From Auraticoccus cholistanensis (lineage in GTDB: Bacteria; Actinomycetota; Actinomycetes; Propionibacteriales; Propionibacteriaceae): DNA of 64,000 bases. Below, in pieces: positions 3,899 through 17,181 of this stretch; position 1 is the first letter of the stretch; each line of letters begins with the position of its first letter. The DNA lies in assembly GCF_009742705.1 (NCBI RefSeq), contig NZ_WPCU01000004.1, positions 636,655 through 700,654 on the forward strand, given 5' to 3'. A program made the position numbers and the translations under genes. The notes under the pieces were generated by a model. The model was not told the origin of the DNA. It was given only the letters and a program-made list of their open reading frames with translations, and ran no database searches.

Positions 3899-3935
3899 GT
3901 GGGCCCCGTGGGGATGGAACCCACAACCCGCGGAT
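3899..3935 (-). repeat. Left attachment site: duplicated 3' end of tRNA-Lys
   Basis: This 37-bp segment matches 15204-15240 at 36 of 37 positions, the mismatch being at 3916. It covers the acceptor 3' strand, T-arm and part of the anticodon stem of the tRNA-Lys, but no tRNA 5' half follows, so it is a fragment left by integration rather than a gene. Confidence 0.9.
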
Positions 3936-4031
3936 CTGTTGCTGCGCCTAGGGCCACTGGCGACCTCCGAAGCAATCTGCGGGTGAGTGCCTGCCCCGTT
4001 CGGTCCAGGGTGACCTCAGTTGACGTGCATT

Positions 4032-4056
4032 AGTCCCCACATGAGTCCCCACGAGG
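4032..4056. repeat. Candidate left arm-type integrase sites (paired AGTCCCC)
   Basis: Two AGTCCCC heptamers start 12 bp apart (4032 and 4044), followed by GAGG. The same arrangement with the same spacing and trailing GAGG occurs at the other end of the island (15137-15161). Paired direct repeats just inside both att sites are what arm-binding sites of a tyrosine integrase look like. Function is inferred from position only. Confidence 0.55.
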
Positions 4057-4099
4057 TTGGTGGGTTGAGCCACGAGCGACCGGGCGGTCAAGGGCGCGC

Positions 4100-5082
4100 T
4101 TACGAACCAAAACGCTTCGCCCTCAGTTCATCTGGGCTGATGATCGGGCGGTGTTGGTGTAAGACCCGGTGGCAAGTAGGGCAGAGGAGGGCGAGGTCGT
4201 TCAAGCCAGTGACGCTTTCGCCGAGCTGGTGTAGTGGTACGACGTGGTGGACATCGATTACGCCCTCGATGCCGTAGGCCTCCGATGAGTCGAAGTCGCA
4301 GACCTCGCAGGCGAGGCGACCGGTCGTCCTGAGGACTGCTGCCCCCTTCTTGGCGACCAACTTGCGGTCCCGTTCGTAGCGACGGTGCTCTCGGAACAGG
4401 ATGCGCCCCTCCGGAGCCTCGTACTCCTCCTCTTCGCCGGTGTCTGTCGGGGCATCGTCGGTCGCACCTTTGACCCGTATGAGGGCCACCGCGTGCGCCA
4501 GCTCGTCCGGCCGCTGGGACCAGTCTGTCCAGACCTTCTTGTCGCGGGCCCACCGTGGTCCATGCCCCGACTCTGGCGCGATGGGTCGATCGAGGAGAAG
4601 TTGTGAAGCTTGAGCGCGACGCCCAAGGGGTTGCGGAAGCGCGGTCGGGCCCGAATCGTGGCGGGGAAGACGCGGAGCGATCGGAGTTCCGTGCTGAGGT
4701 CGGTGACGACCTTGGTTGTGGGGCTGTAGGAGATCCGGCCTCGAGTGCGTAGGTACAGGTCGAGAGCGAGCATCAGCTCGTCGATGGACCAGTCGGGCAG
4801 GCTGACTGGACGGGTGACGCGGAACCCGAGCCTCTCGAGACGGTTGGCGACGGTGCTGTCACCGCCCGAGAAGGCGTCAGCCTTCAACAGCACGCCGTGC
4901 TGGTAAAGGTGAGCGACACCCGCCACCGCCTTCGAGTCGTACTGCTTGTTCTCGAATACCACGAAGTACTCCTTGGCGGGCGCGAAGCCATACTTCTTGA
5001 GGAACGCATCTCGGCCGCTCTCCTCGAACTCCGCTATCGCGTGACGAACGGCTTCGGGGTCGGACAAGTCTGCGAGCGCCAT
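4100..5082 (-). pseudogene. McrA-like HNH endonuclease, frameshifted
   Basis: The N-terminal part starts at ATG 5082 (MALADLSDPEAVRHAI) and contains the KEYFVVFENKQYDSKAVAGVAH block seen in ScoMcrA-like type IV restriction enzymes and related HNH proteins. The C-terminal part lies in a different frame and has a full HNH zinc site: CEVC, DVHHVVPL, LNDLALLCPTCH and H. The frames join cleanly if one G is restored in the GGG run near 4549-4552: DHGG passes into ARDKKVWTDWSQRPDEL. The span is 983 nt, one short of 328 codons. Such enzymes cut modified or phosphorothioated phage DNA. As written the gene is broken by a 1-base deletion; a sequencing error in a G run is possible. Confidence 0.8.
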
Positions 5083-5733
5083 GACGCAAGAGCCTAATGC
5101 TAGGGGCGGCCCGGGAGCAGGACGGCCGCTACTGAGAGGCGAATGACAGCGGCGGCGCACGTCCTCCACCCGGCTCATGAGGAGCCGACGGGTCTTGAAC
5201 GCCAGCTGTCGTCGCTGCCAGCAGGCGATACACCAGGTTGAAGTCACTGGAAGTTGCCGACGCCTTGGACAGGAGGGCTGGCCCCCCGACCGGGGGAAAC
5301 CTCACCGCAGGCGTTACGAATTGGTGCCCCCTCGCTTTCCAACTCCGTAGGTGCCTGTGCGGTGCCGTATACGCAGGTCCAGGCGGCGCCGTGTGTCCGG
5401 GCGAACGGTGCTGAACGCCGACGACTGAGACCAAAGTGAGACCGATGCGCGAAGCGACCACCTGATCCGTAGGTCGAAGAAGCGCTCGTGAGCGTTTGCC
5501 CTCGCCTATTTGGCCCTGCTCCGCGCTCGTGATCGTCTGCCTGAGTCCATGGGTCCGTCAGCCGTGGCTGTCACCGTTGCTGTCAGCGCGAACCATCTGG
5601 GGGACGCGGCCGGGACCGCACAGTGCCGGTGGTGACGCCGAGCTCGATGGTTCAGTGGCGACGCGACCCAGGCGCCGCGCTGAACCGTGCGCGTCTCGTA
5701 TGCTGCAACGCAAGGCCACAGGAGGTTGCAGGC
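5083..5733. other. Island intergenic stretch, no gene recognised
   Basis: About 650 bp with only short, poorly protein-like frames on both strands. It contains the upstream region of the HNH gene and of the disrupted gene that begins near 5734. I see no repeats, tRNA or terminator. Confidence 0.5.
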
Positions 5734-6701
5734 GTGCCCACTAACTCTTTTCGACTATTCTTGGTGTCGTTGCATGACGGGCAGGTTCGGAAGCCGCAGA
5801 AGTTCTCCGACGCAGCTGCGCGATTGTAACGCCGCGTCCTAACGTGGACTATCGTGATCAAATTTGCGCAGATGTAGCCTCCGCCGCAAGCAGTACCTTC
5901 GCTTTTGGCAAGACAAGCGACGAGACGGGCGACGATGCACCGACCGTGCGGTGATGGTGTTCTGGCGGACCCCACCGGATCACAGCCCGACGTGCCGATG
6001 AGGGGTCTTGCGAACTACACGGGTACCGAGCCGTGCTGTACGCGCGAGATGATGACAACAGGGGGCTGCTGGCAGTTGAGGTAAGAGGTCGCTTTTGCCC
6101 GAAAGAACAGATAGTACGGGCGCTCCGGAAAGCCAGCGACGTTCCATGGTCCTTGATATTGCATAAGGGTGTCGCGGACAAGGTCGCTGTCCTGGCTTAT
6201 ATCGAGCGAGCTGAACCACAGTCTATTGAGTTTCTTGAGTACGGCATTGCAAGTGACGGGCAACGCCAGCCTCCAAGGCGAAAGTCGCTGAAGGTCATGG
6301 AGATGAGTTCGGGCTTTCTGTCCAAGGTGCGGAACGAGTTGAAGACCTGGCCGACGCTGGGAGCGGGCAAGAAAACCTCAGCTGTCGCGAAGGCTATGAA
6401 ACAGTTCGTCTTGACCGAAACAGTGGCTATCGATTTTGATGATGTTGCTGTTGAGGTAGACGACGGCAACATGCAGAGACGACTAACGCCGCGAACCGAT
6501 TATTCACGGTTCACGTACTCTCTCGGCGACGACCTCGTTGACGATGACGTGTTCTTTCGGGAGGCGGAGGCTGCTTGCGCGCAGCTAATAGCCGACGTGC
6601 AATCCCTTGCGGAAGAGGATTCGAGGAGTAGGCTGTCTACCTGGTCGTCGGGAGGGATAACCAATGCTGGACCGCTTCAATGTGGGTCCGTTGCTTCGTG
6701 A
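5734..6701 (+). pseudogene. Disrupted island gene of unknown function (frameshift plus stop), with an intact 3' part from 6033
   Basis: A GTG at 5734, eight bases after AGGAGG, opens a protein-like frame (VPTNSFRLFLVSLHDGQ) that ends at TAA 5827. In the next frame, NVDYRDQICADVAS... runs to TGA 5952. After this the same frame continues as ELHGYRAVLYARDDDNRG and stays open to 6701. The three pieces read as one soluble protein of about 320 residues broken by one frameshift and one nonsense codon. An alternative reading is a 222-residue protein from GTG 6033, but no ribosome site precedes it. The product is acidic and soluble with no motif I recognise. GC is well below the flanks. It overlaps the next gene by 38 bp, so they form a pair. 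Confidence 0.5.
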
Positions 6702-7341
6702 TCACGTTCGTTCTACGTGGGACTTACGGTACGAGCGGCCTGACTGGGTAGCGCGCTTCGCGCTTCTGGGAGTGCCTGTAGTCGCCGGCGCCGTGAGCTG
6801 GGTGATTGGTTGGGAGATCGGCCGCCCGGAGTTTTTGGCTCCCGTAGCCGGATTGCTGTCGGGCGCCCTCTTTGGCGCTGTGGGTCAACTTTTCTCCATC
6901 CGGGCGCGCATTGCAGATAGCGTAAGTTTGTCTTCCAATGGGCGCCTAAGGTCTCACTTTCGCGAATCGGTTAGTGGGTTACTCCTGGCTTCCCTAAGCT
7001 CTCTGCTATTGGCATTACTGTCCGCGGTACTTGCGCTTTTCACTGCTTCAAGCAGCGGAGTGGATCCGATCACTGGACTGATTGCGACGTGGCGACACCA
7101 AGTTCTGCTTGCAGGTACTGCCGTCTGCGTCTTCCTCGTGAGCTTCACTCTCATTCTGTTTTGGAAGATGATCCGTCGGCTCTACACCAGCTATCTTGAG
7201 GCTTTCGAAGGCGGTCAGTATCTTGATACCGACAGAGCCCGCATGCTGCAGGGCAGGCAGCTCTCGCGGATGGACGGGGAAAGTTCGTTGTCATCGTCGC
7301 GGCCGGCAGGAGGTGAGCCGAGGAAGCCAAGCAGTTCGTAG
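6664..7341 (+). CDS. Island membrane protein, four predicted TM segments
   Basis: The 225-residue product begins at ATG 6664 after a good GGAGGG site. Hydrophobic segments lie at roughly residues 32-50, 56-76, 104-125 and 144-168, in two hairpins, followed by a Ser- and Arg-rich cytosolic tail. No enzymatic or transporter motif is recognised. It overlaps the end of the preceding soluble gene by 38 bp in another frame, suggesting translational coupling. A soluble protein plus a small multi-TM protein is a layout shared by several phage-defence pairs, but nothing in the sequence proves that role. Codon use is lower in GC than in the chromosomal genes, which indicates transfer. Confidence 0.7.
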   Translation: MLDRFNVGPLLRDHVRSTWDLRYERPDWVARFALLGVPVVAGAVSWVIGWEIGRPEFLAPVAGLLSGALFGAVGQLFSIRARIADSVSLSSNGRLRSHFRESVSGLLLASLSSLLLALLSAVLALFTASSSGVDPITGLIATWRHQVLLAGTAVCVFLVSFTLILFWKMIRRLYTSYLEAFEGGQYLDTDRARMLQGRQLSRMDGESSLSSSRPAGGEPRKPSSS

Positions 7342-7381
7342 CGCCGCCCATGCTTCCGCTGGGCGAACTGCGCGACCGAGG

Positions 7382-8101
7382 TCATGGCCTGGTGCAGGGA
7401 GGAAGTCGTTCAGGCGTCACGGCATCGGGCATAGTTTGCAAGTACCAGTCCTGCCGGCCGCTGCATACTTCGCGGTCCAGCAACTTGTTGTTGCGGACGT
7501 ATTGGACTATGCGGGGCCTGTCGAGAAGTATCACCGCCTCTCCTTCACCTTCACGGAGCACGTAAGCCACAATGGTGGAACCCTTCTCGAAACGGAGATT
7601 CTCTGTTGGCATCCAAGCGATGCCAACCATGGCTGCGCCGACGAGCTGAGGCAGTAGTGCTACAAACAAAAACTCGTAGCGCGTGAGAGTGAACTTCCCC
7701 GAGTCTGTGCTGTAGGGAATACCGAACCATCTTGCCAACAGGGCGGCCAAAGCACCGGCTAGAACGGCCAAACCCAACTGAAATACGGGCAATGCGACAA
7801 CTGCAAACAGCAACAATGTAAAGGTGGTTAGCACAATAACAAGGTTGGTGCCTTCTCGTCGAGCTATTCGAGCAAATAGGTACATCAAGGCCACCTGTAG
7901 CAAGATGGCTAGGACAGTCGGGAGGGTGGCCATAGCCGCCCCTATCAGCACGGTCGAAGTGCTTACGTTATGAACGACGGCGAGCGCGACCTCGGGATGC
8001 CATCGACTGAACGCCAGCACGTTGATCGCGGTGGCGAAGATCGCAGCGAAGCCGACGAGCAGCCCTAGATGGTCCTGCCACGGGGGAATGGTTATGCGCA
8101 C
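7382..8101 (-). CDS. Island membrane protein of unknown function
   Basis: The 239-residue product starts at GTG 8101, eight bases after AGGG. About five hydrophobic segments fill residues 12-165, including a long LTTFTLLLFAVVALPVFQ-type segment. The C-terminal 70 residues are soluble and basic-acidic mixed (EGEGEAVILLDRPRIVQYV) and may be a small cytosolic domain. It is convergent with the membrane gene at 6664-7341, separated by 40 bp. Base composition is low in GC as for the neighbours. I do not recognise the family. Confidence 0.65.
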   Translation of the reverse strand: MRITIPPWQDHLGLLVGFAAIFATAINVLAFSRWHPEVALAVVHNVSTSTVLIGAAMATLPTVLAILLQVALMYLFARIARREGTNLVIVLTTFTLLLFAVVALPVFQLGLAVLAGALAALLARWFGIPYSTDSGKFTLTRYEFLFVALLPQLVGAAMVGIAWMPTENLRFEKGSTIVAYVLREGEGEAVILLDRPRIVQYVRNNKLLDREVCSGRQDWYLQTMPDAVTPERLPPCTRP

Positions 8102-8197
8102 CTATGGACCCTAACTGCCGCAAGGACCGGCCGGCAGCGAGCGCCAGCGAGCGAGGACACGGACCGCAGCGGTGGCGCGGCGGAGCCGCGCTCTTGA

Positions 8198-9130
8198 CTA
8201 GATAGAGGCAGATTCGACAGACCTGCGAACTGGGCGCACAGACGTGCCGGACGACGCCTTCCAGGCCGTCAGAGTGCTGGCCGACCATCGCGGTGTGCGG
8301 CCGTGCCAGCCGTCCGGGGGAGGCCATATCCCGCCGGTGCGGTACGTGCGCACGGTGTCGTAGCTCAGCCCGACGAGAGCGGCTGCCGCCCGCGTGTCGA
8401 GGGTGGCCTCGCCGGCCACCTGGTCGCGCCAGGTCGGCTGTGTGCGCAGCCACGCCCGCACCTGCCTGGCGTCCCAACGGCCCCGAGGGCCTGGAGCGGG
8501 GAACCCCGGGAGAGCACACAGGCGCTCAACCCCAGCGGGGTGCAGCCGTAGATGCTGAATGAGGCTCTCGCGGGTCCACCACGTGACCCGACGAGGAGGT
8601 CGGTCGCGACCGTTGCGCACCCAGGCGCTGACGTCGTCTGGGAACCACCAGTACCCGTATCCGGTCCGGCCCGTCGGCGGAGGCAACGTCGGGCCAGCGG
8701 TGTTCGGACGGCCGGGGGAGAATAGGTCGACCACTGCGGGCCGGCGCAGCACCGCAGCCTCGAAGCGGCCCTCCAAAGCCCGCCAATCCTCCTCGGGCCG
8801 TCGCTGCGCGCCTGTGGCTCGATCGACCTGCGCCGCTGGGATCCCGGCCACGGAGATCATTCGCCTCAGGCGGGCCCTCCTGATCGAGAGCCGCGCTGCG
8901 GCCACCGTCAACGGCCAACCCGCCGCCAACTCCGGCGAAGGAGCGGCTGGGGGCAGCACGGCGCGAGCCTCGTCACGGAACCGGTACACCGTCCGCGCGC
9001 CCAGGTCGTGGTCCTGCAGCAGCCGGGTCAGCTCGGGCACCGTGGTGCCCGGATCGCGGCGCAGCTCCGCCTTGACCAGCTCGAGCTGGCGCGCCCGTCG
9101 CGCCGGACGCTGCGAACGAGTCCGCGGCAC
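8198..9130 (-). CDS. Probable DNA-binding protein with several helix-turn-helix-like segments
   Basis: The 310-residue Arg-rich product starts at GTG 9130, 8 bp downstream of the lsr2 stop, so the two are one transcript. Residues 18-52 (VPELTRLLQDHDLGARTVYRF) and 245-290 (LDTRAAAALVGLSYDTVRTY followed by a Trp-rich wing) resemble helix-turn-helix units. The second looks like a MerR/excisionase-type helix-wing motif reading a tip with WPPPDGWHGRTPRW. A middle block (residues 130-200) also has a winged look with ALPGFPAPGPRGRWDARQV. Together this suggests a protein with several DNA-contacting units, perhaps a regulator or silencer partner. No catalytic residues are seen. The start is uncertain because no clear ribosome site precedes it. 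Confidence 0.6.
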   Translation of the reverse strand: MPRTRSQRPARRARQLELVKAELRRDPGTTVPELTRLLQDHDLGARTVYRFRDEARAVLPPAAPSPELAAGWPLTVAAARLSIRRARLRRMISVAGIPAAQVDRATGAQRRPEEDWRALEGRFEAAVLRRPAVVDLFSPGRPNTAGPTLPPPTGRTGYGYWWFPDDVSAWVRNGRDRPPRRVTWWTRESLIQHLRLHPAGVERLCALPGFPAPGPRGRWDARQVRAWLRTQPTWRDQVAGEATLDTRAAAALVGLSYDTVRTYRTGGIWPPPDGWHGRTPRWSASTLTAWKASSGTSVRPVRRSVESASI

Positions 9131-9138
9131 CGGAGGGT

Positions 9139-9468
9139 TCAGTGGGCGGCGTCGTAGGCCTTGCGTACCTCGGCCGGCACGCGGCCGCGGCCGCTGACCT
9201 CCATGCCCTGCTCGGCCGCCCAGGCCCGCACCTCAGACCCGCTCGGCCGGCCGGTCTGAGCCGAGGAGGAGGTGGCCCGGCCGGTGCGCCGGCCGGCGAT
9301 CCGCCGGGCGTGCCCGACCCAGGCCACGAAGGCGCCGCGCAGGTCCTCAGCGTTGCTGGAGGACAGATCGATCTCGTAGGTGACCCCGTCCAGCCCGAAC
9401 TGGACTGTCTCGTTCGCCGGCCCCTGGTCCAGGTCGTCGGTCAGGCGGATCTCCCCGCGCTGGGCCAT
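9139..9468 (-). CDS. lsr2: Lsr2-family nucleoid-associated protein
   Basis: The 109-residue product matches Lsr2 in length and layout. An N-terminal oligomerisation domain (VQFGLDGVTYEIDLSSSNAE, residues 22-41) is followed by an Arg/Ser linker and a C-terminal DNA-binding domain ending VSGRGRVPAEVRKAYDAAH. The RGR triplet (residues 94-96) is the minor-groove hook. Lsr2 bridges and silences AT-rich, foreign DNA, as H-NS does in enterics. A GGAG site precedes ATG 9468. Being encoded on the island, it is likely an extra copy besides a chromosomal one. It may silence the low-GC genes next to it. Confidence 0.9.
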   Translation of the reverse strand: MAQRGEIRLTDDLDQGPANETVQFGLDGVTYEIDLSSSNAEDLRGAFVAWVGHARRIAGRRTGRATSSSAQTGRPSGSEVRAWAAEQGMEVSGRGRVPAEVRKAYDAAH

Positions 9469-10022
9469 TCGGTCACTCCATTCGATCGGTGATATCGGTA
9501 GGAACTATTCGACCACAAATGGGGTAGGCGGCTCAGATTGCGACGGGTGTGGCGTGATCGGTGGCCATCGGGCGGAGCTGCGTTGCAGGGAACCACCCGA
9601 GTAGGTGCCGAAGCCGACGTCGCTGTCGGGGCTAAAGCGGGTGGGGTGGCTGCAGGTCACCGCGCCCCACCACTCACCGTTACGGTTCTGCCAGCACGTG
9701 AGCGTGCCGACCGCCTCGTAGGTCACCGGCCCGGGACGGTGCGGCCGCTGTTGACGTCGCGCGGGCCGGTCGGGTCGGGGAAGACGACGACCACCGACCG
9801 GGGGAGTCCCTCGTACGAGCTGGCCAGCACCTTCATCGGGTCAGGATGCGCCGCTGGCTCACCGCTCACAAGTCCGGCTAGGCGCTGCGGCAGCCAGTGC
9901 CGGTCGGGGTGGGGTCGTCCCTCTGAATCCTGGCAGACCAAGGGCTTCGTGACCGTAGCCGCAGCCGGGGCAAACGGCAAGTGCTTTGGTGGAGCCGATC
10001 TAAGGCCGCCTGTGCCCCCAAA
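9469..10022. other. Island stretch with only doubtful small ORFs
   Basis: About 550 bp between lsr2 and the lipoprotein gene. A minus-strand ORF at 9505-9726 (73 codons; GTLTCWQNRNGEWWGAVTC) is somewhat protein-like. It abuts another at 9723-9980 by a GTGA overlap (SSYEGLPRSVVVVFPDP). Neither has a recognisable family or a clear ribosome site. They may be remnants of one gene. The lsr2 promoter should lie at 9469-9500. Confidence 0.3.
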
Positions 10023-11099
10023 TCAATAGACAGTGAACTCGTCTCCCGAGACGCGGAAGCCACCCGAGCCATCAATAGTCGAGCACGCTACGGCTGTCGC
10101 TGAAATCTCACAGCTCAACGGTGTGCCGTACTCGCCCCCATCCAGGTCCGTAGGTGCAGTCGTGACGAAGCCAAGCTCTGCTACGGCCGGGACCTGCTCA
10201 GGGTCCACTGGGACGACGCATGCCCTACTCGCCGGCTGCAACGTGTCCCAGTAGATCGAAGAGGCTCCCTCACACCCGTGATCCTCCGCCACCCAATCTT
10301 CTGAATAGTTCGTGCACGTCACAATCGAGCTCTCTGCCGCAGGTGCGAACTGGCAAGCGATGGTGCCGTCTTGGGTCTTGAAGCCACCACCACGTCCCCC
10401 ATCGACGTCGCCGTACAGCTCTTGCCACTCCTCGGAAGTGACCATGTCGGGGTTAGTGTCGCCCTTACTTTGCTGCGAACCATCACCGAGGAGATCGAGG
10501 AGCTCGATGACTTTGGTGCCCGGCGTGGTCCTCACCAACAGAGCCTTGCCGGTGACGCACATCGAATACACATCGACGCTCTCATTGGCAGAAACTGGAT
10601 CGTCATCATCAGCCGGGACGGTTCCGCGCCAAACCTCGGCGGGACCGGATGAGAGTTCGGGGGCAGCTTCCATCCCGGATAGACGAGGGCAGAACGTTGG
10701 GTCGTCGGTCGCGAGTTCTGCGATGTAGGCGTTATGCCCTTCGACAGAAGCGACTCCCTGGAGGAAACAATCGTGCGTGACGGCGGTACCAGGCAGCGTC
10801 CGGTCACTGGCTGTGCTTTGACTACGTGAAGCGCCCAACGCTGTCTGGTACTCGTTGCAGGCGGATGAGGCCGGTAGGCCCTGCCAGGGATCGCCGACCG
10901 CCGTCAGCGCGTCGAGGTTTGGCGCCGAGCGCGTCGGCATCTCCGCCAGCGGAGTCGTAGCACTGGGAGTAGCCGAGGCGTCGGGTAATGCTGGGTCAGA
11001 GGTAGCCATTGACGGCCCGCTGCAGCCGGTGAGAACGACGGTAGCGACGGCCCAGACCACGAACAGGCCCGCGAGGCGGCGTCGAGGTGTGCTCAACAT
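10023..11099 (-). CDS. Putative lipoprotein of unknown function
   Basis: The 358-residue product has an Arg-rich start, a hydrophobic stretch and a lipobox (VVLTGC, Cys about residue 26), followed by a Ser/Thr/Pro linker typical of exported lipoproteins. Four to five paired cysteines are spread over the body. The last 130 residues contain IACQFAPA...IVTCTN and LSCEISATAVACSTIDG and end GGFRVSGDEFTVY, a pattern of two small Cys-paired beta domains seen in actinobacterial secreted proteins. It overlaps the end of the upstream nuclease gene by 7 bp (stop within ATGTTGA), so it is co-transcribed and possibly translated with it. The function is unknown; the context suggests it acts with the nuclease at the cell surface. 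Confidence 0.75.
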   Translation of the reverse strand: MLSTPRRRLAGLFVVWAVATVVLTGCSGPSMATSDPALPDASATPSATTPLAEMPTRSAPNLDALTAVGDPWQGLPASSACNEYQTALGASRSQSTASDRTLPGTAVTHDCFLQGVASVEGHNAYIAELATDDPTFCPRLSGMEAAPELSSGPAEVWRGTVPADDDDPVSANESVDVYSMCVTGKALLVRTTPGTKVIELLDLLGDGSQQSKGDTNPDMVTSEEWQELYGDVDGGRGGGFKTQDGTIACQFAPAAESSIVTCTNYSEDWVAEDHGCEGASSIYWDTLQPASRACVVPVDPEQVPAVAELGFVTTAPTDLDGGEYGTPLSCEISATAVACSTIDGSGGFRVSGDEFTVY

Positions 11100-12217
11100 G
11101 GCCGGTAGGTCTTCCCGCCTGGGTTGTAGCAGCGGTTGCCGGTGTAGCCGGGACCGCCGCCACCACCGGATTGCCCGTCGCCGCTGTCGTAGCTGTCGTT
11201 GCCGCTCGCGCCTTCAGAGGAGTCGTCGTAGGACTGCTGCTCGTCCTCTTCGGCGGCAGCCTGACGCGCAGCCTCCTCGGCGGCTGCGGCGGCTTCCGCT
11301 TCCTCACGGAGAAGGGCGGCGTGGCGGGTCTCGAAGTCGTCCCACCAGCCATTGACGATGGCGTCGACCTGACGCTGCCGCTCGGCCAGCTGCTGCTCTT
11401 CGATGACTGCTGCGGCGTCGTCGCGGACATCAAGCAACTCGGCGTAGCTGGTGACGGCCTCGTTGTGGTGGCGGGCCAACGTCTCGCGGCTGGCTATGAC
11501 GGCGTCTCCGTCGCGGAACATCCACGAGGAGGCCCGCATGGTGTTGTCGAGCCGGCTGGACTCGTTGAGGGTTTCGGCGAGCGCCTCGGCGGCTTCTTGC
11601 AAGGCGATGACCGCATCCACCTCAAGGGTGTCCTCGACATCCACTTCTGCTGCGACCGCCGCGGCGGCCGCCTCAGCGGCGTCAAGATCGTCGGCGACGG
11701 TCGCCACCTGCGTGACTGGGCTGCACTCCAGGGTCGGGTGCCAGCCGCCAACAGCGGCATCGCGCGCTGCTGCTTCGGCGGCCGCGACCTCGTCGAAGTA
11801 GTCGTCCTGGCCGTCATAGGTGACCGCCCGACCAAATCCGGCACGGGCGATCTCGGCGTTGATCAGCGTGTCGGTGAGGAACACCCCGGCGACGGTACGC
11901 CCGTAGCGGTCAAGCTCGACGGTGTCGGTGCGCAGCTCCACGCCAGTTCCGGCCGGTAGGAGTTGCTCAAGAAACTTGGTCGCCTCGGGTCCAAGGCACC
12001 CCACTGGCTCGTCGGGGTGTCTTGTCTCCGGAGTGTCGACGTTCATCAGCCGCACAACCACGGTCTGACCGTCCTCGTCGACTTCGATGGTGTCGCCGTC
12101 GATGACGCGCACCACCATGACGTGACGATCTTCAACGGCTTGCGACACCCCAATACTGACCCCGGCGGCCACTGCTGTCGCGCCGATGAGGCCGAGCGCG
12201 TACCGAGAGAAGCCCAT
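11093..12217 (-). CDS. Staphylococcal nuclease-like (SNase/TNase) protein, exported or membrane-anchored
   Basis: The 374-residue product begins with a hydrophobic segment (residues 6-26; signal or anchor). The SNase domain follows: VRVIDGDTIEV, VRLMNVDTPE (metal and catalytic Asp/Glu) and DRYGRTVAGVFL (catalytic Arg), closing with NAEIARAGFG near residue 135. The known catalytic set Asp, Arg, Asp, Glu and Arg can all be placed. After this comes a long Ala/Glu coiled-coil region (residues 150-320), then a Gly/Ser tail and a Cys-containing end, GYTGNRCYNPGGKTYRPC. The tail is longer than in usual SNases. It would degrade DNA or RNA outside the membrane. It is the first gene of a pair with the downstream lipoprotein. 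Confidence 0.85.
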   Translation of the reverse strand: MGFSRYALGLIGATAVAAGVSIGVSQAVEDRHVMVVRVIDGDTIEVDEDGQTVVVRLMNVDTPETRHPDEPVGCLGPEATKFLEQLLPAGTGVELRTDTVELDRYGRTVAGVFLTDTLINAEIARAGFGRAVTYDGQDDYFDEVAAAEAAARDAAVGGWHPTLECSPVTQVATVADDLDAAEAAAAAVAAEVDVEDTLEVDAVIALQEAAEALAETLNESSRLDNTMRASSWMFRDGDAVIASRETLARHHNEAVTSYAELLDVRDDAAAVIEEQQLAERQRQVDAIVNGWWDDFETRHAALLREEAEAAAAAEEAARQAAAEEDEQQSYDDSSEGASGNDSYDSGDGQSGGGGGPGYTGNRCYNPGGKTYRPC

Positions 12218-12429
12218 TGCCCACCTTCACCTATGCGGGGTCCCCTCCCCGGCTTGTCGAGAAGTGTAGAACTCAACGCCGACGTAATCGGTACGACGGC
12301 AGGTTCCCGACCACGGGGGGCCACCGAGCGGTGGCAACCCGGCCCGAAGTGGCAGCGACGCCGGCAGCGTCGAAACGGAGGCTCTAGCATGCAGGCAGCA
12401 CGGTGCACGTGCCGGTGAAGGGGACGCGG

Positions 12430-13374
12430 ATGGACAAGCAGTGGGACGACGACCTGTCCCAACGGGTGCGCGATGTCCACCGGCTGACGCCTGAGGCATT
12501 CGTGATGCGTGTTCGACGCGTCAGCGTGTGGCCCGACGCGGATGCGGCCGCACGACCACCGACGCAGCGGCGGCGGCGGGACCAACTTCCCATCCCTGCC
12601 GCACGGGTGTGGGCGCAGCGTCGCCTGACCCAACTGGTCTGCGCTGTGGGTGCGCTCGTCATACTCGCCTGCCTCGTCCTGCTGCCAGACTGGACGGCGC
12701 TGATCGCAATCGGGGGGACGCTGATCGCGGCTCAAGTGACGTGGGCGAGGGCCAGCGCCTGGCGAAAGCTGCGCCCACAGACCGAGGGCGGACTTGTGAA
12801 GAGCGATCCGGTCGGGCTGTTCGTGGCGTGCTTGCACCGCACCAACCAGGCATCGTGGTCTGCTGGGGTGATCGTGGTGGCGCACGACCTCGTGCAACGC
12901 ATCCTGTCGCGGCGAGTGTGGTCGAACGCCCAGGCTCAAATGGCTGTTGGCCACGTCGACCTGCACCGCGAACTCGCTCAGATCGCCGCCGACGCCGACT
13001 GGCTGTGGACGTTGACCGCGGACATGCCACTGACAGCTGACCTGCTCCCAGAGACGCGCGAGGCGCTGCGTCCGCTCGCGCTCGACCAAGCCCGGATCGA
13101 GCGGTCGCTGATGGCGCGGCTACAGCAGCTAAGAAGCATCGACGTCGAAGCGGCGCGGCTGGCGCGCCAGCTCGACGAACTCGAACTGGTCGACCGTATC
13201 TACGCCCGCCACGGCGAGTTGCAGAACCTGCTCAGCGACGCCGCCTCTCGCAGCGAAGCAGGGCAACTGGCCGAAACGTCCGAGCGGCTTCGCCTCGAGC
13301 AGGAGGCGGTCCGGGTCGGGGTTCGTCGCCTCGGTGAACTCACTGCAGGGTTGAGCAAGCTCGCCGACACTTGA
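12430..13374 (+). CDS. Island protein with two TM segments and coiled-coil tail, unknown function
   Basis: The 314-residue product starts at ATG 12430, six bases after AAGGGGA. The frame is open to 12403, but the later ATG has the better site. A TM hairpin lies at about residues 66-105 (VCAVGALVILACLVLL and TALIAIGGTLIAAQVTW). Residues 215-314 are Leu/Arg/Glu-rich with heptad-like spacing, probably coiled coil. No known domain is recognised. It is divergent from the SNase gene across a 212-bp gap. Confidence 0.6.
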   Translation: MDKQWDDDLSQRVRDVHRLTPEAFVMRVRRVSVWPDADAAARPPTQRRRRDQLPIPAARVWAQRRLTQLVCAVGALVILACLVLLPDWTALIAIGGTLIAAQVTWARASAWRKLRPQTEGGLVKSDPVGLFVACLHRTNQASWSAGVIVVAHDLVQRILSRRVWSNAQAQMAVGHVDLHRELAQIAADADWLWTLTADMPLTADLLPETREALRPLALDQARIERSLMARLQQLRSIDVEAARLARQLDELELVDRIYARHGELQNLLSDAASRSEAGQLAETSERLRLEQEAVRVGVRRLGELTAGLSKLADT

Positions 13375-13440
13375 GATGAAACCTTGCCGCATAGACGCCG
13401 GGCACCCCCAGCGGATGCTGACGGTTGTGGTCGTTGTCGA

Positions 13441-13641
13441 CTAGTTCGGCGCGCCACACTCGTGGCCGTAGATGCGGTGGAGGAAGGTGCTGGCACGCTC
13501 GTCGGGGTGGATCGGGATCCTCTCTGCGCAGTGCATGCACTTCGCGCCCCGCCACTGGCCGAGTTCGTCCGGCCTCGCGAACTGTGCTTCCCGGAGCGTG
13601 AAGGTGAACTGAGCAAACGACACGTCGAAGGAGTCGGCCAT
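13441..13641 (-). CDS. Small zinc-ribbon-like protein (66 aa)
   Basis: The frame from ATG 13641 gives 66 residues, MADSFDVSFAQFTF... The second half has CMHC, several His (IPIHPDE, FLHRIYGH) and a final Cys (HECGAPN), a possible single zinc site. The upstream part of the same frame is poor and probably untranslated. Its function is unknown. It is followed at 13725 by the nuclease remnant on the same strand. Confidence 0.45.
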   Translation of the reverse strand: MADSFDVSFAQFTFTLREAQFARPDELGQWRGAKCMHCAERIPIHPDERASTFLHRIYGHECGAPN

Positions 13642-13724
13642 CAGGCCATGCTGCCAGGCAGTGTGAGGCCTTGCGGGTGGTCGCTCGGTGACGATGGGTT
13701 TCAAGCGGCCAGCCCTAGGGAGTC

Positions 13725-14262
13725 TCAGAGCCCGATGTCGTCGTAGCCCTCCAGCTGGCGCCAGCGGCCGCTGGTCGCACTCTTCACGTCCAGCCGGTCC
13801 ACCACGGCTAGCGAGCCGAAGTCGAGCCCGGTCATGTCGGCGATGGCAGCCACGGGCACCTGGAAGGTGCGCCACGGCCCGAGCAACGGTTCCTGGTCTG
13901 CGGCAGCACCCTGGAGGTCGATGTCGTCGAGCTCGGGTGACTGGTCCAGCAGGTAGCCGGTGCTGTGCAGCTCATCGTCTTGGACGCAGGCGGCCACCTT
14001 CCAGAACCGGCGGGGTAGTTGGATGCCGCGGTAGCGCTGGTCGGCTTGGGTCGAAGACGCAGCCGGTGAGGGTGCTGAGGCGGAGGTTGGTGGCATCGGC
14101 GGCTTCGAGGAGGTAGTTCTCCAGGCCGAGCCACAGCTGGTCGGACTGGTTGAACCCGGCCGCCTGGGGGGCGGCGTTGGTGTAGGCGAAGGTGTCCCGG
14201 TTCGCCTGGGCGGCGGTGCCGCGCTCGCCCCAGACCGGGTCCCGCCGGCGGACCAGATGTCC
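13725..14262 (-). pseudogene. DNA/RNA non-specific endonuclease (NUC family) remnant, 5'-truncated and frameshifted
   Basis: Reading leftward from 14262 the frame gives GHLVRRRDPVWG, DTFAYTNAAPQ, GFNQ and LWLGLENYLLE, which match the conserved core of EndoG/NUC nucleases (catalytic His in the GH of the H-x-x-R/D region, Asn in TNA...FNQ). Near 14040-14055 the match changes frame and continues with QRYRGIQLPRRFWKVAA and FQVPVAAIADMTGLDFG to the stop at 13725. The first half of the protein, including any signal peptide, is missing: homology stops at 14262, exactly where the integrase reading begins on the other strand. It is therefore inactive. Confidence 0.75.
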
Positions 14263-15129
14263 CGTGACCTCTACGCCGGGGTGACCAGACGTCTGACCAT
14301 CCCCGCCATCGGTGGGCTGCGGCTGGAGGAGTTGACCGCGCCGACCCTGGATCGGTTCCTGCAAGAAATCCTGCTCCAGAAGGGACCGGCGACTGCGAAG
14401 CTATGTCGGGCGGTGCTGTCTGGTGCTTGCGGTTGGCTGGTCCGCCAGGGTGGCCTTTCGACGAATTCCGTCCGCGACCTGACGCCGATCGAACTGGAGG
14501 GTGGACGGACGGCGAAGGCGCTGACCCTGGAGGAGGTGCGGCGCTGGCTGGCCCGGTTGGACGGTGACGAGTTCGCTCGCCGTCATGACCTCCCTGAGCT
14601 CGCGTGGTTCATGCTGGCTACCGGTCTCCGAGTTGGCGAAGCGGTCGGGGTCACGTGGGCGGACGTGGATCTGGACGCTGGGGTCGTGATGGTGCAACGA
14701 ACCATCGTGCCCGTGGCCGGTCAGGGACTGGTGGCAAAGCGGGTGAAGTCCAAGGCGTCGGAGCGGGGCCTCATCATGCCGGCGTGGTGCGTGACGCTGC
14801 TGCGTGCGCGGCGGGTACGCCTCGGAGCGTTCGAAGGTCCGGTGTTTCCTGACAGCCGCGGCGGGTGGCGCGACCGGGGTAATGTGGGCGAGGCCTTCCG
14901 CCGGGTTCGCGGGGACGACTTCGATTGGGTCACGACCCACACGTTTCGCAAGACAGTCGCTACTTTGCTCGACGAGAGCGGCGCCACGGCGCGGATGATC
15001 GCTGACCAGCTCGGGCACTCGCGGGTGTCGATGACGCAGGACGTGTACCTGGGTCGTCGCGCTGCGAACGCGCCCAATGCGGTGGCCCTGGAGGCCTACG
15101 ACCCCGACCTGGCGCGTCCGGCGAAGTGA
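14257..15129 (+). CDS. Tyrosine recombinase/phage integrase, N-terminally truncated
   Basis: The 290-residue product keeps part of the core-binding domain (residues 8-75) and the whole catalytic domain. The catalytic set is intact: Arg125 (ATGLRVGE), His228 and Arg231 (HTFRK), His254 (LGHSRVSMTQ) and Tyr264 (DVYLG), with a lysine in the KRVKSK hairpin. Related integrases are about 370-400 residues long with an N-terminal arm-binding domain, which is missing here. The gene ends 75 bp from the tRNA-Lys 3' end, the usual position for an integrase that targets that tRNA. The ATG at 14257 has no clear ribosome site and probably arose at the deletion junction. It could still cut core sites weakly, but proper integration or excision is unlikely. 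Confidence 0.85.
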   Translation: MSRDLYAGVTRRLTIPAIGGLRLEELTAPTLDRFLQEILLQKGPATAKLCRAVLSGACGWLVRQGGLSTNSVRDLTPIELEGGRTAKALTLEEVRRWLARLDGDEFARRHDLPELAWFMLATGLRVGEAVGVTWADVDLDAGVVMVQRTIVPVAGQGLVAKRVKSKASERGLIMPAWCVTLLRARRVRLGAFEGPVFPDSRGGWRDRGNVGEAFRRVRGDDFDWVTTHTFRKTVATLLDESGATARMIADQLGHSRVSMTQDVYLGRRAANAPNAVALEAYDPDLARPAK

Positions 15130-15136
15130 ACACATC

Positions 15137-15161
15137 AGTCCCCGGACTAGTCCCCATGAGG
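15137..15161. repeat. Candidate right arm-type integrase sites (paired AGTCCCC)
   Basis: Two AGTCCCC heptamers start at 15137 and 15149, 12 bp apart, ending in GAGG. They match the pair at 4032-4056 in spacing, orientation and trailing bases. They sit between the integrase stop and the right att site. Confidence 0.55.
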
Positions 15162-15203
15162 GGTGCAGCCGGGTCTTCGGATGCCCGCTGTTGTGCGGTT
15201 TCA

Positions 15204-15240
15204 GTGGGCCCCGTGGGGATCGAACCCACAACCCGCGGAT
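15204..15240 (-). repeat. Right attachment site within tRNA-Lys 3' end
   Basis: This is the 37-bp partner of 3899-3935. It contains the T-arm, acceptor 3' strand and part of the anticodon stem, so integration left the tRNA whole on this side. Confidence 0.9.
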
Positions 15241-15277
15241 TAAAAGTCCGCTGCTCTGCCAGTTGAGCTAGAGGCCC
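15205..15277 (-). tRNA. tRNA-Lys (anticodon TTT)
   Basis: The 73-nt minus-strand sequence folds as a standard cloverleaf. The acceptor GGGCCTC pairs with GGGGCCC (one G-U) and is followed by discriminator A. The anticodon loop CTTTTAA is closed by GCGGA/TCCGC, and the T-arm is GTGGG-TTCGATC-CCCAC. The anticodon is TTT. CCA is not encoded. It is the integration target of the island. Confidence 0.96.
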
Positions 15278-15869: not shown

Positions 15870-16032
15870 GATCCCCCCGATCACGACGCCTCCGGCAGCG
15901 CCAGGAGGCGATACCTGGATCGTCCGCCCGCCTCCCACGGCTGTCAACCACCGGCTGTCGAGCGGGTGCGGCCGGCTCAGGCGGGTACTGCCACCAGCAG
16001 AGACGAACGTGCTGAGCCGGCCAGGAGGACCC

Positions 16033-17181
16033 ATGAAGGCGATGACGTACCGAGGCCCGTACCGGGTGCGGGTGCAGGAGAAGGACATGCCCAGGATCGA
16101 GCACCCCAACGACGCGGTCGTGCGGATGACCAAGGCCTCGATCTGCGGCTCGGACCTGCACCTGTACCACGGGATGATGCCCGACACCCGGATCGGGCAC
16201 ACCTTCGGTCACGAGTTCATCGGCGTGGTCGAGGAGGTGGGCCCCTCGGTGCAGCGGCTGCAGCGCGGTGACCGGGTGATGGTGCCGTTCAACATCTACT
16301 GCGGCTCCTGCTGGTTCTGCTCCCGCGGGCTGTACTCCAACTGCCACAACGTCAACCCCAACGCCACCGCCGTGGGCGGCATCTACGGCTACTCCCACAC
16401 CACCGGCGGCTACGACGGCGGCCAGGCCGAGTTCGTCCGGGTGCCCTTCGCCGACGTCGGTCCCTCGGTGATCCCGGAGTGGATGGACGACGAGGACGCC
16501 CTGATGCTCACCGACGCCTGCTCCACCGGCTACTTCGGCGCCCAGCTCGGCGACATCGTGGAGGGCGACACCGTGCTGGTGCTCGGCGCCGGCCCCGTCG
16601 GGCTGTACGCGGCCAAGTCGGCCTGGTTCATGGGGGCCGGGCGGGTCATCGTCATCGACCACCTGGACTACCGGCTGGAACGGGCCCGCACCTTCGCCCA
16701 CGCCGAGACCTACAACTTCGCCGAGTACGACGACATCGTCGTGCACATGAAGAAGATCACCGACCACCTCGGCGCCGACGTGGCGATCGACTGCGTCGGT
16801 GCCGAGGCCGACGGCAACCTGACCCAGCACCTGGCGGCCGCCAAGTTCACCCTGCAGGGCGGCTCGCCGACCGCCCTGAACTGGGCCATCGACTCGGTGC
16901 GCAAGGGCGGCACCGTGTCGGTGATGGGCGCCTACGGCCCGATCTTCAGCGCGGTGAAGTTCGGCGACGCCCTGAACAAGGGCCTGACGCTGCGGATGAA
17001 CCAGGCGCCGGTGAAGCGGCAGTGGCCCCGGCTGTTCGAGCACATCCGCAACGGCCACCTCAAGCCCAGCGAGCTGATCACCCACCGCATCCCGCTGGAG
17101 CACATCGCCGAGGGCTACCACATGTTCTCGGCCAAGCTCGACGACTGCATGAAGGTCGTCGTCGTCCCCGACGCGGCCTGA
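16033..17181 (+). CDS. Zinc-dependent alcohol dehydrogenase
   Basis: The 382-residue product starts at ATG 16033 after a strong AGGAGG. It is a medium-chain dehydrogenase. The catalytic zinc ligand region has Cys38 and GHEF (His60, Glu61). The structural zinc loop has four cysteines (CGSCWFC...C, about residues 90-104), and the Rossmann motif GAGPVG is near residue 186. It resembles the glutathione-independent formaldehyde dehydrogenase/threonine dehydrogenase-like branch common in actinobacteria; the substrate cannot be named. The C-terminus (LDDCMKVVVVP) is complete. The gene directly downstream, 36 bp away, is a conserved hypothetical that probably shares the transcript. Confidence 0.88.
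   Translation: MKAMTYRGPYRVRVQEKDMPRIEHPNDAVVRMTKASICGSDLHLYHGMMPDTRIGHTFGHEFIGVVEEVGPSVQRLQRGDRVMVPFNIYCGSCWFCSRGLYSNCHNVNPNATAVGGIYGYSHTTGGYDGGQAEFVRVPFADVGPSVIPEWMDDEDALMLTDACSTGYFGAQLGDIVEGDTVLVLGAGPVGLYAAKSAWFMGAGRVIVIDHLDYRLERARTFAHAETYNFAEYDDIVVHMKKITDHLGADVAIDCVGAEADGNLTQHLAAAKFTLQGGSPTALNWAIDSVRKGGTVSVMGAYGPIFSAVKFGDALNKGLTLRMNQAPVKRQWPRLFEHIRNGHLKPSELITHRIPLEHIAEGYHMFSAKLDDCMKVVVVPDAA

Follow-up and report, generated by a model that had tools for sequence, protein, structure and literature searches.

Actinomycete integrative and conjugative elements (AICEs) of the pSAM2 type combine a tyrosine integrase, the replication initiator RepSA, an FtsK-like Tra protein and a KorSA-like GntR regulator with an attachment site in a tRNA gene (PMC3218068). 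Lsr2 is a gene silencer that coats DNA. Lsr2-type proteins nucleate at drops in GC content (PMC7002338), and CgpS of the prophage CGP3 (PMC7002338, PMC8612146) provides a precedent for an element-borne Lsr2 that silences its own element (PMC7002338). Genomic islands encoding Lsr2 homologs have also been reported, and according to the same review no function had been published for the homologs found on plasmids (PMC7074111). Here we describe an 11.3-kb island (positions 3899-15240) that carries an lsr2 gene in Auraticoccus cholistanensis. It lies in a stretch of 64,000 nt from contig NZ_WPCU01000004.1, which we call the window and to which plain coordinates refer; G000 denotes the genome itself.

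The island shares with pSAM2-type AICEs the attachment (att) site at the 3' end of a tRNA gene. Unlike these elements, however, it has neither rep nor tra and its integrase gene is truncated, which makes it a remnant. Like CgpS, its Lsr2 belongs to an integrated AT-rich element, but CGP3 is a prophage for which CgpS binding has been measured, whereas the island is an AICE remnant known from sequence whose host also has a housekeeping Lsr2. With the islands that encode silencer homologs it has the integrated state and the extra silencer copy in common, and it adds an AICE background and a neighbouring gene with several helix-turn-helix (HTH)-like stretches, termed the partner below. The island is thus a case of an already known kind and not a new system.

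An integrated element in tRNA-Lys and its sister in the same genus

The island is bounded by 37-bp direct repeats that match at 36 of 37 positions (Table 1). They far exceed all other direct repeats of the region, of which the next-best families are 23-27 nt long with 78-83% identity. The right copy, attR, coincides with the 3'-terminal 37 nt of an intact tRNA-Lys(TTT), and an Rfam scan returned nothing above threshold except this tRNA. An earlier reading made from the sequence only had proposed such repeats, a site-specific integration into tRNA-Lys, an integrase gene beside the right repeat and a GC drop at 5.7-8.1 kb. Repeat search, ARAGORN and Rfam agree on the repeats and the tRNA. Integration is supported, and related genomes carrying the same genes without a tRNA repeat were not found. 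The integrase is present as well, with the qualification that its gene is 5'-truncated and the right end of the island therefore decayed. The GC content falls to 55-60% at 5.75-8.1 kb, compared to ~74% in the rest of the window. The AT-richest 30-bp windows of the 64 kb cluster in the island, which holds 90 of the top 100; they are located in the cargo and in one segment upstream of lsr2.

Only one other genome of the genus was compared (G001). Its tRNA-Lys is identical over 74 nt, and a second copy of the 37 nt, 100% identical to the tRNA copy, is located 11.9 kb away at the left end of an element. This element encodes an integrase, RepSA (E 2e-94), a Tra protein with an FtsK/SpoIIIE domain and a GntR-UTRA (KorSA-like) regulator, and hence has the make-up of an AICE (PMC3218068). 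The island shares with this intact AICE the integration site, the arm repeats and a very similar integrase. Paired GTCCCC repeats, probably arm sites for the integrase, occur close to each island end and agree with those of the G001 element. The DNA shared by the two elements comprises a 158-bp left end and a 98-bp noncoding element. The AT-rich cargo of the G001 AICE (L059:7169-11579) encodes a UvrD-like helicase, a DUF2290 protein and an open reading frame (ORF) with many near-identical repeats of ~25-30 amino acids (SSQMQSLVAAMAPIQSAASILRANS).

Compared with its G001 counterpart (92% identity), the island integrase is missing the N-terminal 96 residues and retains the C-terminal 289. DNA homology to the G001 int gene begins at 14263, where a 5'-truncated endonuclease remnant on the opposite strand ends. 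RepSA was found neither in the island nor anywhere in the genome. Pfam scans of the island ORFs revealed no Rep domain (the genome-wide search covered RepSA, not Prim-pol) and no FtsK/SpoIIIE domain, and there was no DNA match to the G001 tra gene. An intact AICE would have a complete integrase beside the att site, a replication initiator (RepSA, RepAM or Prim-pol) and an FtsK-like Tra, and these are missing here. What the island does have are att repeats derived from the same tRNA 3' end as those of an intact AICE, together with residual AICE genes. From the att ends, the 92% relation of the integrase to that of an AICE at the same site, the truncation and the absence of RepSA we conclude that the island is, judging by its sequence, a decayed and rearranged relative of an AICE and not a working one. 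The sequence-only reading had recognized that an element carrying its own Lsr2 is integrated in tRNA-Lys, but overlooked that this element is a decayed AICE. Its ends might still be recognisable by an integrase supplied from elsewhere. Sequencing errors could in principle account for the frame breaks.

In a search of genome contigs, nine relatives of the integrase in named genomes were located beside a tRNA gene, which was tRNA-Lys(TTT) for five of them and tRNA-Thr for four. Among the matches listed, a near-perfect (97-100%) partial copy of the 37 nt besides the full tRNA occurred only in G000 and G001 out of 57 family genomes. In a genome of another genus (G015) the tRNA-Lys is identical and neither of the two matches represents a second copy; its site is therefore unoccupied. 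The empty tRNA-Lys that was to be looked for in related genomes does therefore exist, but no exact junction can be drawn because the flanks are rearranged between the genomes. Direct flank synteny fails with G001, where terC lies 41 kb from the att site, and with G015, where the segment matching the window at 17.2 kb sits on the opposite side of the tRNA-Lys. To the right of the tRNA, the window encodes a zinc alcohol dehydrogenase (16030-17181) within a stretch of DNA that is 94% identical to G001:C1:390218, at a different location; other genes shared with G001 reach only 77-86%. This suggests recent transfer or strong constraint of this stretch.

The accessory lsr2 and its partner gene

The island Lsr2 contains both the PF11774 dimerisation domain (84.1 bits, cut-off 29.6) and the C-terminal DNA-binding domain PF23359 (54.9 bits, cut-off 26.9), and the RGR motif is invariant in the alignment. 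Its genome encodes two Lsr2 proteins. The second, chromosomal copy, for which a check had been suggested, is indeed present at G000:C4:77444 between folate-synthesis genes and clpC, and the lsr2 gene of G001 is likewise found beside clpC. The island gene is not, and hence does not occupy the housekeeping location. Island and housekeeping Lsr2 share 67% identity, compared to 82% between the housekeeping protein and that of the sister species. In the tree, the housekeeping Lsr2 groups with those of G001 and G015 (row L097; support 100/97), while the island protein falls among housekeeping-type sequences at a weakly supported position. The identity and the tree together rule out that the island lsr2 is a recent duplicate of the host gene. 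To the divergent Lsr2 proteins of two RepSA-bearing AICEs its identity is 34-38%. An AT-rich segment lies 12-53 bases upstream of the lsr2 start and, from its composition, suggests autoregulation; a promoter scan of the upstream region revealed no sigma-70 consensus.

The partner gene starts 8 bases past the lsr2 stop codon on the same strand, an arrangement consistent with an operon. The sequence-only reading had described it as a multi-HTH gene. One HTH_17 domain near the C-terminus, which resembles excisionase and DNA-binding families of phages, is the sole domain that was detected, and the further HTH-like stretches were seen by eye and are unconfirmed. Compared with excisionases, only this C-terminal domain resembles the short HTH_17/AlpA-type proteins, and the full protein has 310 residues. 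A structure model predicted from the single sequence was discarded for its poor quality (mean predicted local distance difference test score, pLDDT, 48.8). Searches covering 392 genomes of the order, 395 genomes of the class, genome contigs, phages and plasmids revealed no good homolog; outside its own genome the protein gave short matches to the C-terminal HTH and other weak matches only, and none in the genome contigs. Within the genome, a partial paralog of 236 residues (L046:9309-10019, on G000:C17) resembles the N-terminal half of the partner and lies beside sugar-metabolism genes in what appears to be a core region. The N-terminal matches of this paralog were set aside, as by eye they were mostly repeated, transposase-like ORFs. 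The partner may steer or counter Lsr2, or may be a relic of the control genes of the element.

Possible roles of the island Lsr2

We regard it as probable that the island is a decayed AICE relative in tRNA-Lys whose accessory Lsr2, together with the partner, silences the island and its own upstream region. A tyrosine recombinase would have inserted the AICE at the 3' end of tRNA-Lys(TTT); rep, tra and the 5' part of the integrase gene would then have disappeared, while the att ends and the pair of lsr2 and multi-HTH gene were kept. The accessory Lsr2 would be expressed and bind, jointly with the host Lsr2, to the AT-rich stretches of the island and to its own AT-rich upstream region. This binding would keep the island quiet, and the partner would modulate or position it. 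Since the most AT-rich windows are concentrated in the cargo and upstream of lsr2, and since Lsr2-type proteins nucleate at GC drops, self-silencing combined with autoregulation is the most likely action of the island Lsr2. GC dips that precede lsr2 in phages have likewise been interpreted as autoregulation (PMC8612146). Several observations speak against this scenario. The cargo of the G001 AICE is equally AT-rich (54-59% GC) and this element has no lsr2, so an own silencer for hiding the cargo, as the sequence-only reading had it, is possible but not required; the housekeeping Lsr2 of the host could possibly silence the cargo. The partner has only a partial paralog and its role is a guess. 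Furthermore, the GC content at third codon positions (GC3) is 94% in lsr2 and 81% in the partner, compared to 61-64% in the AT-rich cargo. This points to a different source of the gene pair, which is probably of other origin than the cargo, and a shared origin or purpose need not be assumed.

The same figures bear on the idea that the pair is a passenger, that is, a host-like, high-GC lsr2 and partner recombined into a dying element without any special silencing role. The GC3 of lsr2 resembles that of host genes, its product falls, at weak support, among housekeeping-type sequences and not with the divergent AICE proteins, and the element has no working mobility genes. However, both ORFs of the pair are intact amid broken neighbours, an AT-rich dip lies immediately upstream of lsr2, and the gene is no recent duplicate of the host copy, which groups with G001 and L097. 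We consider a mere passenger possible, if rather doubtful. It is unlikely that the pair replaced the module of GNAT and KorSA-like (GntR) genes and formerly controlled excision and transfer instead of the cargo. The pair was found in no intact AICE, and with rep, tra and the integrase start gone nothing remains to be regulated, although the pair adjoins the conserved 98-bp element, in the slot that the GNAT and KorSA-like genes occupy in the G001 AICE, the C-terminal domain of the partner is excisionase-like, and at one locus (L144) an lsr2 is located directly upstream of RepSA.

Counter-silencing would reverse the outcome: the island Lsr2 would form mixed oligomers with the host Lsr2, the partner would counter-silence and the cargo would be expressed. 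In the alignment, the two Lsr2 copies are highly similar over their dimerisation domains, transcription factors are able to counter-silence Lsr2-type proteins (PMC7002338), and it has been suggested that horizontally acquired silencer homologs act largely by interaction with core silencers (PMC7074111). However, the island Lsr2 is not a truncated antagonist but a full-length protein whose DNA-binding domain is complete, and we judge this mechanism very unlikely. That the partner is a dedicated co-silencer or counter-silencer, forming a two-protein module with the element-borne Lsr2, appears quite improbable; if true, it would be an Lsr2 partnership apparently undescribed for mobile elements.

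Island genes and lsr2 on other mobile elements

The features of the island are summarized in Table 1. Two of its nuclease genes are broken. In AICEs the 98-bp element is oriented like tra and rep, and elsewhere it often separates convergent genes and directly follows a cargo gene, in some cases beside restriction-like or AAA-like genes. A terminator, a REP-like repeat, a cassette end or a transfer locus (clt) are candidates for its nature.

Table 1. Features of the island in window coordinates
Feature	Position	Strand	Evidence
attL, distal copy of the tRNA-Lys 3' end	3899..3935	+	36/37 to 15204-15240; same 37 nt at left end of G001 AICE
Putative left arm-type integrase binding repeats (TTAGTCCCCACATGAGTCCCCACG)	4030..4053	+	paired motif shared with left end of G001 AICE; binding putative
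ScoMcrA-like type IV restriction endonuclease, broken (N-terminal part and HNH in different frames)	4100..5082	-	HNH PF01844 E 4e-7; PADLOC mREase_IV E 1.8e-14; PDB 5zmm McrA E 1.2e-12
AT-rich cargo ORF, 222 aa	6033..6701	+	GC 55%, GC3 61%; no family match
AT-rich cargo ORF, 225 aa, hydrophobic stretches, probable membrane protein	6664..7341	+	GC 58%; no family over cut-off
AT-rich cargo ORF, 239 aa, hydrophobic stretches, probable membrane protein	7382..8101	-	GC 56%; no family match
Conserved hairpin-rich noncoding element, 98 bp, cargo/backbone boundary	8123..8220	+	91% to G001 AICE; matches in 21/198 family genomes
Partner, 310 aa, several HTH-like stretches, C-terminal HTH_17/excisionase-like domain	8198..9130	-	PF12728 at cut-off; phrog_66, phrog_597
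Accessory lsr2, 109 aa, intact, RGR motif	9139..9468	-	PF11774 E 5e-24; PF23359 E 5e-15
AT-rich segment, candidate autoregulatory site	9480..9521		top 0.1% of AT-rich 30-bp windows of the 64 kb; function putative
Lipoprotein-like ORF, 358 aa	10023..11099	-	weak NCBIfam LppK match, below cut-off
Thermonuclease (SNase) domain protein, 374 aa	11093..12217	-	PF00565 E 9e-17; PADLOC candidate model C3a212 (SNc+LTD) E 5e-33
ORF, 323 aa	12403..13374	+	no family match
DNA/RNA non-specific endonuclease remnant, 5'-truncated, two frames	13725..14364	-	PF01223 in two overlapping frames; homology stops at ~14262
Integrase remnant (tyrosine recombinase)	14257..15129	+	PF00589 E 2.3e-16; 92% to G001 integrase residues 97-385
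Putative right arm-type repeats (ATCAGTCCCCGGACTAGTCCCCATG)	15134..15158	+	paired motif shared with right end of G001 AICE; binding putative
tRNA-Lys(TTT), intact	15204..15277	-	ARAGORN; Rfam RF00005, 67.9 bits; attR = 15204-15240

AICEs with lsr2 are uncommon but recurrent; the family contains ~40 substantial RepSA loci. In Phycicoccus sp. HDW14 (L086, NZ_CP049935.1) an AICE in tRNA-Lys(TTT) carries lsr2 between int and the tRNA. It shares the integrase family (61%), the tRNA and the presence of lsr2 with the island, but has its own Tra, RepSA and integrase, and its lsr2 is divergent (38%) and lacks such a partner. The lsr2 upstream of RepSA at L144 belongs to genome G261, and a second element of the same genome has a partial Lsr2 match near RepSA. 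Outside AICEs, accessory lsr2 genes were seen by eye near very large relaxase-like ORFs (L125, L135), and lsr2 is present on 272 plasmid records and 302 phage records. Given these records, the other lsr2-bearing AICEs and the islands already reported (PMC7074111), the description of the combination as unusual was overstated. Two further genomes of different species (G018 and G131; L136 and L137) have near-identical accessory lsr2 genes, both neighbouring a glucose-6-phosphate-dehydrogenase-like gene; this second lsr2 may be core in that genus.

The island provides a well-delimited case of an Lsr2 on an AICE, and its sister at the same site without lsr2 permits a direct test of whether the gene serves the element or is a passenger. 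It also shows that an lsr2 gene can persist after the element carrying it has lost its mobility genes.

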